NCBI RefSeq assembly: GCF_001477655.1
Contig: NZ_CP011266.1
Location: forward strand, 2,278,001 to 2,342,000
Source: Methanobrevibacter millerae
GTDB lineage: Archaea > Methanobacteriota > Methanobacteria > Methanobacteriales > Methanobacteriaceae
DNA length: 64,000 nt
Direction of reading: 5' to 3'
Shown here: in pieces, positions 3,702 to 18,918 of the stretch
Position numbering within the stretch: the stretch's first letter is position 1
Layout: every line of letters begins with the position of its first letter
Made by a program: the position numbers and the translations under genes
Notes under the pieces: model-generated
Told to the model about the DNA's origin: nothing
The model's input: the letters and a program-made list of their open reading frames with translations, nothing else
The model's database searches: none

Positions 3702-5621
3702 ATGAAAAAATACATTAAAAAATTAATAAAGCTAATCAACTATGAAAGGGAAGCTGAAATAGAACTGATGGTATCTGAAATAGAGAATATGTCTGGTCAA
3801 AAAAGAGAAGAACTCGGAAGAGCCATCAACAAAGTCAAAGGAAAATACCTTGGAAAGGAATTGGGATTAAATATTGTGCAGTTCGGAAGGTCTGAAATTA
3901 TCGATACTGAAATTAGTGTTGGAGATATGGTTTTAGTGAGCACTGGAAATCCTTTGCGAAGCGATTTGACAGGTACAGTTACCGAGAAAGGTGGGCGATT
4001 CATTAAAGTTGCATTTGATAGCAGAGTTCCAAAATGGGCTCTTAAAAAGAAAGTCAGGTTAGATTTATATGCAAATGACATTACATTCAGAAGAATGGAA
4101 GACAATTTAAAGCATCTGACATTGAAAGGAAAAAATGCTCTCGAATATTCCCTAAATAAAAGAGATCCCCAACCCAACAGAGACAATATCTATATCGACT
4201 ACATTGACGAGTCATTAAATGAATCACAGAAATTGGCTGTTAAAAATAGCCTTACAAGTCAAAATTTCTTTTTAATACATGGTCCTTTCGGAACAGGAAA
4301 AACCAGAACACTGGTTGAATTGATATCACAGGAAGTAAGACAGAACAGAAAAGTTTTGGCCACAGCAGAAAGCAATGCCGCAGTTGATAATATTGTTGAA
4401 AGACTGGTTCTGAATAAAAAACTAAAAATAACAAGATTAGGACATCCACAGCGAGTATCTAAAGATAATATTACATATACATTAGCATACAAAGTCGAAA
4501 AACACTCACTTAACGATAAAATCAGGAGAATTCATAAAAAGATTGACAAATTGATTGAAAAAAGAAGCAACTTTACAAAGCCTACACCACAGTACAGAAG
4601 AGGATTTTCAGACCATGACATCCTGTATTATGCATCCAAGGGAAAAGGGGGTCGCGGAATAAGCGCTGAAAAAATGAAATCAATGGCTGATTGGCTTGAT
4701 TACAATTTAGAAATAGATGAATTGCATGATGAAATTAAAAGAGTGGAAAACAAAATGATTAAAGACATTGTTGAAACAAGCGATGTAATTCTATCCACCA
4801 ATTCTTCTGCAGCGCTTGACAGCATTGCAAGTACAAAATTCGATGTTGTCATTGTTGATGAAGCATCACAGGCCACAATTCCAAGCGTTCTGATTCCAAT
4901 TGCAAAGGCAAGAAAGTTCATATTGGCAGGTGACCACAAGCAACTTCCGCCAACAATTATCAGCGACAGGGCATATGATTTACAGGACACACTGTTTGAA
5001 TCTCTGATTGAAAAATACCCCCACAAATCACAATTATTGAATGTACAATACCGTATGAATAAAGTTCTTATGGAATTTCCAAACTCTGAATTTTATGACA
5101 ATAACTTGAAAAGTGATACAAGTGTTAATAATATCACTTTAAAGGATATTTCTGATGTTGAAGATGATGATGCCCTGATGTTTATCGATACATGCAATAT
5201 AGAAAAAAATCATGAAAAACACCTGAAAGATTCAAAATCAATTGTAAACCATATAGAAGCAAGAATCGCAATAAAAGTGGCGACGGATTATATAAAAGCC
5301 GGTATCAGTGAAAAAGACATTGGAATAATAAGTCCCTATGCTGATCAGGTGAAATTAATCTCTGAAAAAACCAACATTGAAGTGAAAACTGTTGACGGTT
5401 TTCAGGGCCGTGAAAAAGAAATCATAATTATTTCAACAGTTAGAAGCAATGAACACGGACAAATTGGATTTTTAAAAGATTTGAGAAGACTTAATGTTGC
5501 AATTACTCGTGCAAAAAGAAAATTAATCATAATTGGAAACAGCAATACTTTAAAATCCAATGCAACTTATGACAGATTAATAAATTTTGTTGATGATAAA
5601 AATTTGAAAGTAGTTATTTAG
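3702..5621 (+). CDS. Superfamily 1 DNA/RNA helicase (SMUBP2/DNA2-NAM7-like)
   Basis: All main SF1B helicase motifs are present. An N-terminal beta-barrel region (about 65-125) precedes Walker A GPFGTGKT (194-201), Walker B VDEASQAT, motif III GDHKQLPPT, motif IV VQYRMN, motif V TVDGFQGREKEIII and motif VI RRLNVAITRAKRKL. Length (639 aa) and order match the IGHMBP2/Hcs1 group of archaeal helicases, which act on DNA or RNA with 5'-3' polarity. The ATG at 3702 follows GTTGTGATG. It stands alone, with the structured RNA locus and argG downstream. Confidence 0.9.
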   Translation: MKKYIKKLIKLINYEREAEIELMVSEIENMSGQKREELGRAINKVKGKYLGKELGLNIVQFGRSEIIDTEISVGDMVLVSTGNPLRSDLTGTVTEKGGRFIKVAFDSRVPKWALKKKVRLDLYANDITFRRMEDNLKHLTLKGKNALEYSLNKRDPQPNRDNIYIDYIDESLNESQKLAVKNSLTSQNFFLIHGPFGTGKTRTLVELISQEVRQNRKVLATAESNAAVDNIVERLVLNKKLKITRLGHPQRVSKDNITYTLAYKVEKHSLNDKIRRIHKKIDKLIEKRSNFTKPTPQYRRGFSDHDILYYASKGKGGRGISAEKMKSMADWLDYNLEIDELHDEIKRVENKMIKDIVETSDVILSTNSSAALDSIASTKFDVVIVDEASQATIPSVLIPIAKARKFILAGDHKQLPPTIISDRAYDLQDTLFESLIEKYPHKSQLLNVQYRMNKVLMEFPNSEFYDNNLKSDTSVNNITLKDISDVEDDDALMFIDTCNIEKNHEKHLKDSKSIVNHIEARIAIKVATDYIKAGISEKDIGIISPYADQVKLISEKTNIEVKTVDGFQGREKEIIIISTVRSNEHGQIGFLKDLRRLNVAITRAKRKLIIIGNSNTLKSNATYDRLINFVDDKNLKVVI

Positions 5622-5633
5622 GCATACCTAAAC

Positions 5634-5641
5634 TTTAAATA
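5634..5641 (+). promoter_or_regulatory. TATA box of the argG-upstream RNA
   Basis: TTTAAATA preceded by AAAC, a BRE/TATA layout close to the tRNA promoters of this window. A start 24-26 bases downstream would fall at about 5662-5666, exactly where the first RNA stem begins. Confidence 0.5.
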
Positions 5642-5663
5642 TGATAAAGCAAATATAATTATA

Positions 5664-5801
5664 TACAGAGACTGAAAGGTGAACCAAAAAATACCTTCAA
5701 ACTCTGCTCTTAATTGGGAGCGTAATTTTTCAAAGCCCATATAACTTTTCAACCTCAATTATATCCCAATTAAGAGTATTCTTCTGTCAAAATCTTTTTT
5801 T
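5664..5801 (+). ncRNA. Candidate structured small RNA, two stacked hairpins plus U-tract
   Basis: The gap between the helicase and argG holds a compact RNA-like unit. Hairpin 1: CAGAG (5666-5670) pairs with CTCTG (5702-5706), enclosing TGAAAGGT (5673-5680) paired to ACCTTCA (5693-5699) with one bulged A. Hairpin 2 follows with no spacer: CTCTTAATTGGGA (5707-5719) pairs perfectly over 13 bp with TCCCAATTAAGAG (5764-5776) around a 44-base loop. Seven T bases (5795-5801) lie 18 bases later. With the TATA box at 5634 this gives a transcript of about 138 nt. argG has its own TATA box after the U-tract, so a free RNA is more likely than a leader. No known RNA family was recognised. Confidence 0.5.
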
Positions 5802-5818
5802 AAAAAATACATTAATGA

Positions 5819-5826
5819 TTATATAC
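5819..5826 (+). promoter_or_regulatory. argG TATA box
   Basis: TTATATAC lies after the U-tract of the upstream RNA and 60 bases before the argG ATG. The sequence TTATATACTATTAAAA resembles the tRNA promoters at 17962 and 19006. Confidence 0.45.
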
Positions 5827-5885: not shown

Positions 5886-7061
5886 ATGGACAAAGTAGTC
5901 TTAGCATTCAGTGGTGGACTAGATACCTCTGTATGTGTTAAATTATTAGAAGAAAAATATGATGTGGAAGTAGTAACAGCCTGTGTAGATGTAGGACAGG
6001 GTGAAGAAGAAATTAAAAAAGCAGAATCCATGGCTGCTAAAGTAGGTACTGGAAACCATTACACAATTGATGCAAGAGAAGAATTTGCAAACGAATATGT
6101 TGCAAGAGGAATAAAAGCAAATGCTGAATATGAAGGATACCCATTAAGTACAGCACTTGCAAGACCTTTAATCGCTCAAAAAATTATAGAAGTTGCTGAA
6201 AAAGAAGGAGCAACAGCAATCGCACATGGTTGTACCGGAAAAGGAAACGACCAATTCAGATTTGAAGCTGTAATTCTTGCAATGTCTGATTTAGATGTTA
6301 TTGCACCAATCAGAGAATTAAACCTAACAAGAACTGAAGAGCAAGCTTACGCTGAAGAAAAAGGTATCAAATTAAATTATGATAAAATTTACAGTATTGA
6401 TGAAAACATTTGGGGAAGATCCATCGAAGGAGGAAACTTAGAAGACCCTGCAAACGAACCCCCTGAAGACATTTACGAATGGACCAAATCATGGAAAGAT
6501 GCTAATGATGAACCTCAAAAAGTTACTATTGAATTTGAAGAAGGTGTTCCTGTAGCTATTGACGGTGAAATGATGCCTTTAATTGAATTGATTGAAAAAG
6601 CAAATAAAATTGCAGGGGACAATGGTATTGGAAGAGTAGACACCATTGAAAACAGAATGATTGGTCTTAAAAGTAGGGAAAATTACGAAGTTCCTGGAGC
6701 TAAATTATTAATTGCAGCCCACCAAGCATTGGAAGAACTCGTATTGACTACAGATGAATTAAGATTTGCAGAATACATGTCAACTCTTTATGCTGATTTA
6801 GTATACAGAGCATTATGGCAAGAACCTTTAAGAGAAGACTTAGACCAAGCAATTGACAACATGCAACAAAGAGTTAGTGGTGAAGTCACAATGAAACTCT
6901 TTAAAGGATCAATTCAACCATTAGTTAGAAAATCACCTTTCAGCTTACACAGCATCGAACAAATTACGTTTGAAGACAAAGATACCGATCAAAGAGAAGT
7001 TGAAGGTATGATTAAATACCACGGTTTGCAGGCTGCAAACTATCAAAAATTAAACAGATAG
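5886..7061 (+). CDS. argG: Argininosuccinate synthase
   Basis: Joins citrulline and aspartate with ATP to give argininosuccinate, the penultimate step of arginine synthesis in the cytoplasm. The 391 residues begin with the PP-loop ATP motif [17 protein letters not shown] (SGGLDTS 9-15). They continue with [26 protein letters not shown] and [12 protein letters not shown], all hallmarks of the family, and the length is normal. The start is fixed by GGTGATT (5877-5883). No other arg genes are adjacent. A perfect 18-bp palindrome overlaps its stop codon and may end transcription. Confidence 0.97.
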
Positions 7062-17777: not shown

Positions 17778-17925
17778 TGGGGTCACAGGGATTTGAACCC
17801 CGATCCTGGGATTTCTCTTGCCTCAGTACTCCAATTGATCATCACAACAAGTACTGTTCAGTTACGCGTATATTTCTTCAAAGACAACTGGAGTCCCAGA
17901 TGATGCCTGGTTACACTATAACCCC
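17778..17925 (-). tRNA. tRNA-Trp(CCA) with a 75-nt intron
   Basis: Acceptor GGGGTTA (17925-17919) pairs with TGACCCC at the other end, and the T-arm is CGGGG-TTCAAAT-CCCTG. The anticodon stem TGGGA (17898-17894) pairs with TCCCA (17811-17807), with anticodon CCA at 17891-17889. The exons meet only if 17813-17887 is removed, so the intron lies after position 37, the usual archaeal site. TTGTC at its start can pair with GGCAA near its end, consistent with a bulge-helix-bulge splice motif. The mature tRNA would be 73 nt with A73; CCA is not encoded. Confidence 0.93.
17813..17887 (-). ncRNA. Box C/D guide RNA inside the tRNA-Trp intron
   Basis: Reading the minus strand, the intron contains a degenerate C-like box TTGAAGA (17881-17875), CTGA (17861-17858), a perfect C box GTGATGA (17845-17839) and CTGA (17826-17823). 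The bases before the last CTGA (17836-17827) include TTGGAGT, complementary to ACTCCAG of the tRNA's own 5' exon. Counting five bases from the D box puts G opposite C34, the first anticodon base. Intron-guided Cm34 methylation of pre-tRNA-Trp is established in other Euryarchaeota. The 13 bases before the first CTGA form a second guide whose target I cannot identify. Confidence 0.8.
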
Positions 17926-17961
17926 ACACATAACATTCAATAATTAATATATTTTAATTAG

Positions 17962-17969
17962 TATATAAA
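17962..17969 (-). promoter_or_regulatory. tRNA-Trp TATA box
   Basis: On the minus strand AAACTTTATATACTAATTAA; a start about 26 bases downstream of the box falls near 17939, 14 bases before the tRNA-Trp 5' end. The sequence nearly matches the promoter of the tRNA cluster at 19006. Confidence 0.5.
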
Positions 17970-17974
17970 GTTTA

Positions 17975-18385
17975 TTATTCAAATTTCATTTGCTTATCAA
18001 TGCCAGCAATTTCATCTATTTCCAAACCTTTTTCTAAGGCAAAGTCTTTTTCAACCTTATAATTACCGTTTCTTGTTCTTTCAGTGTTTTCAGGTTCTAA
18101 AAATAGCCATTTAGTATATTTGAATTTGACTCCTATATATGATTTGGCACCAAAAATATTAGAAAATTCCAAAAGAGCATCTATTTGATCTCCATCAATG
18201 TAAATCTTGTCTTTTGTTGTTGTTTTTACTTCAATGGCCAAGTATAATTTACCATTTCCTGCAACAACATCCGGCAAAGGTCTTTTAGTAGCTCCTCCAG
18301 AGGCGGGAGCTCTCATAGCTGCAAAATTTCTCTCCCAAAGTTTATGCACTAAATCTCTTTCTTCAGCAGAACCTTTCTTTGCCAA
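17975..18385 (-). CDS. hjc: Holliday junction resolvase Hjc
   Basis: Cuts four-way DNA junctions during recombination. The 136 residues contain KGSAEERDL near the N-terminus, PASGGATKRPLPDVVAG (Asp39) and AIEVKTT (Glu52, Lys54), the E-D-E-K nuclease site of archaeal Hjc. The frame is open to a TTG at 18397, but GGTGT at 18395-18391 is a ribosome binding site spaced for the TTG at 18385, giving the usual MAKKGS start. It sits between tRNA-His and tRNA-Trp on the same strand and may be read through from the tRNA promoter. Confidence 0.92.
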   Translation of the reverse strand: MAKKGSAEERDLVHKLWERNFAAMRAPASGGATKRPLPDVVAGNGKLYLAIEVKTTTKDKIYIDGDQIDALLEFSNIFGAKSYIGVKFKYTKWLFLEPENTERTRNGNYKVEKDFALEKGLEIDEIAGIDKQMKFE

Positions 18386-18413
18386 AAATAACACCAAAAA
18401 AATAAGTTTATAA

Positions 18414-18490
<77 letters not shown>

Positions 18491-18527
18491 AATTAAATAT
18501 ATGAATTAAATAAAAAAATTTGTAAGA

Positions 18528-18610
18528 TGCGGGAGCAGGGATTTGAACCCTGGTAGACCTGCGTCAACAGGTCCTAAGCCTGTCCCCTTTGGCCTCTCGG
18601 GCACCCCCGC
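18528..18610 (-). tRNA. tRNA-Leu(TAG)
   Basis: This class II tRNA has a long variable arm. Acceptor GCGGGGG pairs with CTCCCGC, the anticodon stem ACAGG pairs with CCTGT around CTTAGGA, the T-loop is TTCAAAT, and the discriminator is A73. CCA is not encoded. Confidence 0.95.
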
Positions 18611-18657
18611 TTATAAACGAAAGTGAATCAGAAACCATTAAAAATCTTAACAAGTTT

Positions 18658-18738
<81 letters not shown>

Positions 18739-18765
18739 ATACAAATGAATAAAAGTTTAGTAACA

Positions 18766-18839
18766 TGGGCCCAATGGGGTTCGAACCCATGGCCTTCCGG
18801 TTATGAGCCGGACGCTCTACCTGGCTAAGCTATGGGCCC
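18766..18839 (-). tRNA. tRNA with CAT anticodon (elongator Met or Ile2)
   Basis: Acceptor GGGCCCA pairs with TGGGCCC, the anticodon stem TCCGG pairs with CCGGA around CTCATAA, and the discriminator is A73. The three consecutive G-C pairs next to the loop that mark initiator tRNA are absent, so it is not the initiator. I cannot separate elongator Met from the agmatidine-modified Ile2 by eye; the GGGCC acceptor and CGGCTCATAACCG arm recall archaeal Ile2. Confidence 0.9.
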
Positions 18840-18845
18840 TAAAAG

Positions 18846-18918
<73 letters not shown>

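Follow-up and report, generated by a model that had tools for sequence, protein, structure and literature searches.

Does the intergenic stretch between the gene for an IGHMBP2-type helicase and argG in Methanobrevibacter millerae hold a small RNA gene of its own and, if so, what might control that gene and what might its product do? We addressed this question in a window of 64,000 nucleotides (the whole stretch of DNA analysed; contig NZ_CP011266.1, positions 2,278,001 to 2,342,000), drawn from a genome of 2.54 Mb in a single contig; coordinates are those of the window unless stated otherwise. The helicase gene (TIGR00376) lies upstream of the locus at 3702–5621 and argG downstream at 5886–7061, both on the + strand, as are all elements of the RNA locus described below. 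Elsewhere in the window, six tRNA genes are clustered on the − strand (17778–18918), one of which (17778–17925) is 148 nt long, suggesting an intron.

A first-pass annotation had read this site as a small RNA gene in its own right, roughly 138 nt long, and the elements on which it relied are all present in the sequence: a TATA-like box (TTTAAATA, 5634–5641); a first hairpin (5666–5706); a second hairpin whose 13-bp stem (5′ arm 5707–5719, 3′ arm 5764–5776) stacks directly on the first; a run of seven T residues (5795–5801); and, beyond it, a separate TATA box for argG near 5818–5826. We further delineated a near-invariant unpaired segment in the loop of hairpin 2 (UUCAACCUCAAUUAU, 5748–5762), complementary to the Shine-Dalgarno sequence (GAGGU) and proposed here as a seed, and a conserved tail (UCUUCUGUCAAAAUC), which together with the T-run terminator spans 5780–5801. 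Absent from the earlier description was a DtxR/IdeR-type operator, the exact 16-bp palindrome TTTAGGCATACCTAAA at 5617–5632, which overlaps the helicase stop codon and abuts the TATA box; in nearly all relatives, CTTT(T)ATATA follows right behind it.

Folding of the 142-nt stretch yielded −30.7 kcal/mol, compared with a mean of −17.1 for shuffled sequences (z = −4.1; 0 of 200 shuffles), and hairpin 2 by itself reached a z of −5.7 against its shuffles. Within the genus alignment, two-sided changes were found at 4 of 14 pairs, a count matched by none of 500 shuffles; with other genera included, such changes affected 7 of 13 stem 2 pairs, amounting to 23 cells versus 6.0 in shuffles. The helix is preserved with different letters in distant stems such as CCTTTCAATTGATGCA/TGCATCAATTGAAGG and TCCTTAATTGGTA/TACCAATTAAGGA. 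These counts derive from sequence alignments that were not fitted to structure, and relatedness among the sequences means that they are not independent. Hairpin 1 varies freely in sequence and length among relatives while continuing to fold, with a mean of −7.5 versus −2.7 kcal/mol for its own shuffles (n = 48; mean z −3.0, 37 of 48 below −2). The unpaired segment UUCAACCUCAAUUAU showed a mean column identity of about 0.97, versus 0.61 for the initial portion of the loop, and the tail motif CUUCUGYC is conserved as strongly as the loop. The two-sided changes in stem 2 and the continued folding of hairpin 1 indicate that the RNA structure is under selection.

A switch between two folds, raised by the same annotation, fared less well. 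The GGG/CCC pairing behind it does exist in this strain but has no comparative support. More plausible is an alternative fold involving CCTCAATTA, which is repeated in the loop and which many relatives also carry in the 3′ arm; either copy could then serve as partner for the 5′ arm.

To define the distribution of the RNA, we surveyed 67 genomes of the genus. A DNA search matched 51 of them, a few marginally; 49 matched a covariance model built on hairpin 2 and the tail, leaving about a quarter without a match to the model; the RNA is thus not essential. A second model that included distant members extended the range to homologues in five additional genera of the family, and some genomes carry the RNA twice. 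These homologues combine different stem sequences with the same anatomy: hairpin 2 with a long loop in all, a visible TATA box in nearly all, and in most an exact or slightly altered operator and the tail TTTTCTTCTG, although the tail has diverged in one genus. At two loci of one genome, the upstream stretch examined was too short to reveal an operator. The core TCTTCTG is invariant in the 42-sequence alignment and retained in most other genera. Two further loci, L173 and L181, are degenerate remnants in which a stem is retained and the conserved loop lost; L181 also lacks the operator. No conserved open reading frame was found across the homologues, so a peptide-coding role was rejected, and the first-pass impression that the RNA fits no known family was borne out by the absence of any Rfam covariance-model match, RyhB included. 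Near-matches in Rfam were dismissed as chance.

A repeat element (MITE) or functionless chance hairpins, conceivable insofar as intergenic AT-rich palindromes are common, can be regarded as refuted, because a sequence search found a single copy in the genome and because covariation, a near-invariant loop, the operator and the tail are all present.

A cis-acting role, as a leader or attenuator of argG or as a terminator of the helicase gene, is favoured by synteny with the helicase gene and/or argG, which is common within the genus and also seen in two others; the helicase gene is in fact the upstream neighbour at every genus locus where the contig extends that far. Against this stand several observations. 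The next gene is not argG in about ten members of the genus; argG lies about 500 nt from the RNA in one other genus and was not seen beside it in three others; and the T-run and a separate argG promoter intervene in the source genome. A conserved operator and TATA box belong to the RNA itself, its second copies are located elsewhere, and genomes without it keep both the helicase gene and argG, the argG promoter in some coming directly after the helicase gene. The cis reading is therefore largely refuted, and we grant it only a very slim chance: the RNA is independent of argG, and its adjacency to that gene is incidental. Together with the conservation, the compensatory changes, the conserved promoter and terminator, and the lack of a conserved reading frame or Rfam family, this leads us to conclude, on comparative sequence evidence and without transcript data, that the locus upstream of argG is a genuine small RNA gene not catalogued before.

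The operator offers the clearest indication of how this gene might be controlled. The sequence TTTAGGNNNNCCTAAA, right before the TATA box, is exact in all 49 aligned Methanobrevibacter loci, and across five whole genomes the operator motif occurs in 68 exact copies versus 8 for a reversed-pattern control. Further copies, found in several species, lie before or near feoB (in three genomes), a metal P-type ATPase gene, rubrerythrin, ABC and CbiM-like transporter genes and a marR-gpx-trxB cluster; a number of the operators are paired at a spacing of 68–72 nt. The palindrome TTTAGGCATACCTAAA matches the published IdeR/DtxR half-site TTAGGNNNNCCTAA, which structural work on IdeR identifies as the site occupied by a single dimer (PMC8464063). 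At about 947 kb, the genome encodes one clear full DtxR-family repressor with DNA-binding, metal-binding and FeoA domains, whose best-matching relatives of solved structure are an iron-dependent repressor, ScaR, SloR and IdeR. The RNA thus likely belongs to a metal-repressor (DtxR/IdeR) regulon, a placement that rests on the operator sequence and not on binding or expression data; that this protein binds the operator is likewise inferred in the absence of binding data.

That the sensed metal is iron is inferred from regulon membership. The same RNA and mechanism might instead respond to manganese, or to nickel or cobalt: DtxR proteins can sense manganese or other metals, the DtxR homologs MntR and ScaR were among the database matches, and some operators lie near CbiM-like transporter genes. 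However, operators before rubrerythrin and, in three genomes, before the ferrous iron transporter gene feoB, as well as the FeoA-like C-terminal domain of the repressor, point away from this possibility, which we consider improbable.

The operator also led to a second RNA family. In the source genome, three operator sites are each followed by about 260 nt of closely similar sequence, and a profile built from these stretches recovered one further copy in the same genome and more copies in six other species, where they occur in tandem or divergent from feoB and trxB. Members of this family, about 230–260 nt long, lie at genome positions 723801, 1444954 and 1445414 (+ strand) and at about 797.6k (− strand), and elsewhere at loci L060, L066, L081, L082, L094, L106, L107, L109 and L111. 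Their alignment (n = 16) revealed three hairpins, an unpaired ACAATCTCCAAA and a loop ATCTGCCAAA resembling the tail of the first family, with a UCUGYCAA-like motif common to the two; paired operators often surround the TATA box, and no Rfam match was found for this family. At L111, tandem copies and four exact operators share one intergenic region upstream of feoB. It is possible, although we advance the idea only tentatively, that both RNA families, one DtxR-type repressor and the shared unpaired UCUGYCAA form a post-transcriptional iron-sparing system of the Methanobacteriaceae that evolved separately from the bacterial ones. If so, the two families would retune iron-heavy methanogenesis during iron shortage.

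Taken together, these features make it reasonably probable, in our judgement, that the RNA of the helicase-argG locus is an iron-repressed, trans-acting small RNA, analogous but not homologous to RyhB, FsrA and IsrR, although its targets are unproven and transcript data are lacking. When Fe2+ is plentiful, the DtxR-family repressor on its 16-bp operator beside the TATA box would exclude TBP/TFB from the promoter; when iron is short, the repressor would release and the RNA of about 138 nt would be made together with feoB and other members of the regulon. Repression under sufficiency and release under starvation are inferred from the position of the operator and from known DtxR biology. The two stacked hairpins would stabilise the RNA and present a C-containing loop, UUCAACCUCAAUUAU here and AUGUCAUCUCAGCCUUUU in other genera, that may pair with the Shine-Dalgarno regions of chosen mRNAs, lowering their translation and thereby sparing iron. 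By analogy with IsrR, whose C-rich regions meet Shine-Dalgarno sequences, the RNA probably acts by covering ribosome-binding sites on particular mRNAs, with targets unproven. The direction of control, Shine-Dalgarno pairing and the identity of targets all remain inferences.

Four kinds of search for targets gave no decisive support for particular mRNAs. Long complementary sites were few and near control level, the RNA locus itself excepted, and matches combining the seed with a start codon occurred across eight genomes as often as for a reversed control. When duplexes were predicted for 359 gene starts within 464 kb of genome, no clear excess over flank-shuffled loops emerged, and several of the top matches were dubious reading-frame starts. 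Two hydrogenase subunit-like genes at L359, mvhD and mvhG, rank high in loop pairings, in a ranking that overall did not exceed the control. Four genes with conserved GAGGTT start sites (mmp14, trxB, a DUF gene and one resembling cobyrinate synthase) were also compared in RNA-bearing and RNA-less genomes; shared sites occur in the latter too. The mmp14 site is kept without the RNA and is thus an ordinary Shine-Dalgarno sequence, and mmp14 was rejected as a target. The trxB gene keeps TTGAGGTT in 5 of 12 RNA-bearing versus 0 of 6 RNA-less genomes, a pattern that is only suggestive; trxB, mvhD and mvhG can be named as targets only as guesses.

These results leave room for an RNA that is metal-regulated but works without base pairing, for example by titrating a protein through UCUGYCAA or the double hairpin. 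Such a role would accord with the searches performing no better than controls, with the GAGGTT sites of RNA-less genomes, with a tail as conserved as the loop, and with the similar CUGCCAA loop of the second operator-driven family. Nevertheless, the loop differs between genera, UUCAACCUCAAUUAU being replaced by AUGUCAUCUCAGCCUUUU, yet both versions remain complementary to a Shine-Dalgarno-like sequence, which suggests pairing. We therefore regard a non-pairing role as unlikely, though it survives better than the other alternatives, and retain the pairing small RNA as the preferred reading.

Methanogens rely strongly on iron-sulphur enzymes, and Methanobrevibacter is among the main methane producers in ruminants. 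By analogy, the RNA is probably an archaeal counterpart of the bacterial RNAs that save scarce iron. If an iron-adjusting function is confirmed, iron-sparing control by RNA would prove to have arisen a further time in Archaea, and there would be a concrete way to test the response of rumen methanogens to iron. The kind of iron-responsive small RNA is known from bacteria; as far as we can tell, the RNA family, its archaeal hosts and the repressor class are new.

DtxR-family control of iron homeostasis, as proposed here, is known from the Idr1/Idr2, SirR and TroR regulons of haloarchaea. Archaeal DtxR regulons were reportedly the subject of a comparative study by Leyn and Rodionov in 2015; in the open literature searched, which did not include that study, we found no description of an archaeal small RNA in a DtxR or iron-repressor regulon. 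Archaeal small RNAs acting on mRNAs include sRNA162 of Methanosarcina (PMC3510493) and s479 of Haloferax, which acts on zinc transporter mRNAs and is tied to metal transport (PMC8155600); neither was found described under a DtxR-type operator, and their sequence relation to the present RNA was compared through Rfam only. Among bacteria, FsrA (Bacillus) and RyhB and PrrF (Proteobacteria) are likewise iron-repressed small RNA genes: FsrA binds Shine-Dalgarno sequences through a C-rich motif, much as the loop here is complementary to them, and the paralogous PrrF1/F2 pairs recall the duplicate copies that certain genomes of other genera carry. Unlike the RNA described here, which has no Rfam match, these systems involve Fur and the Hfq or Fbp proteins. 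IsrR of Staphylococcus differs in being bacterial, in answering to Fur rather than DtxR, in having demonstrated targets and in lacking any relation in sequence or synteny. Like the present RNA, however, it carries an iron-repressor box in its promoter and is conserved through a genus, and in an AT-rich genome it presents stem-loops with unpaired C-rich regions complementary to the Shine-Dalgarno sequence (PMC9410917).
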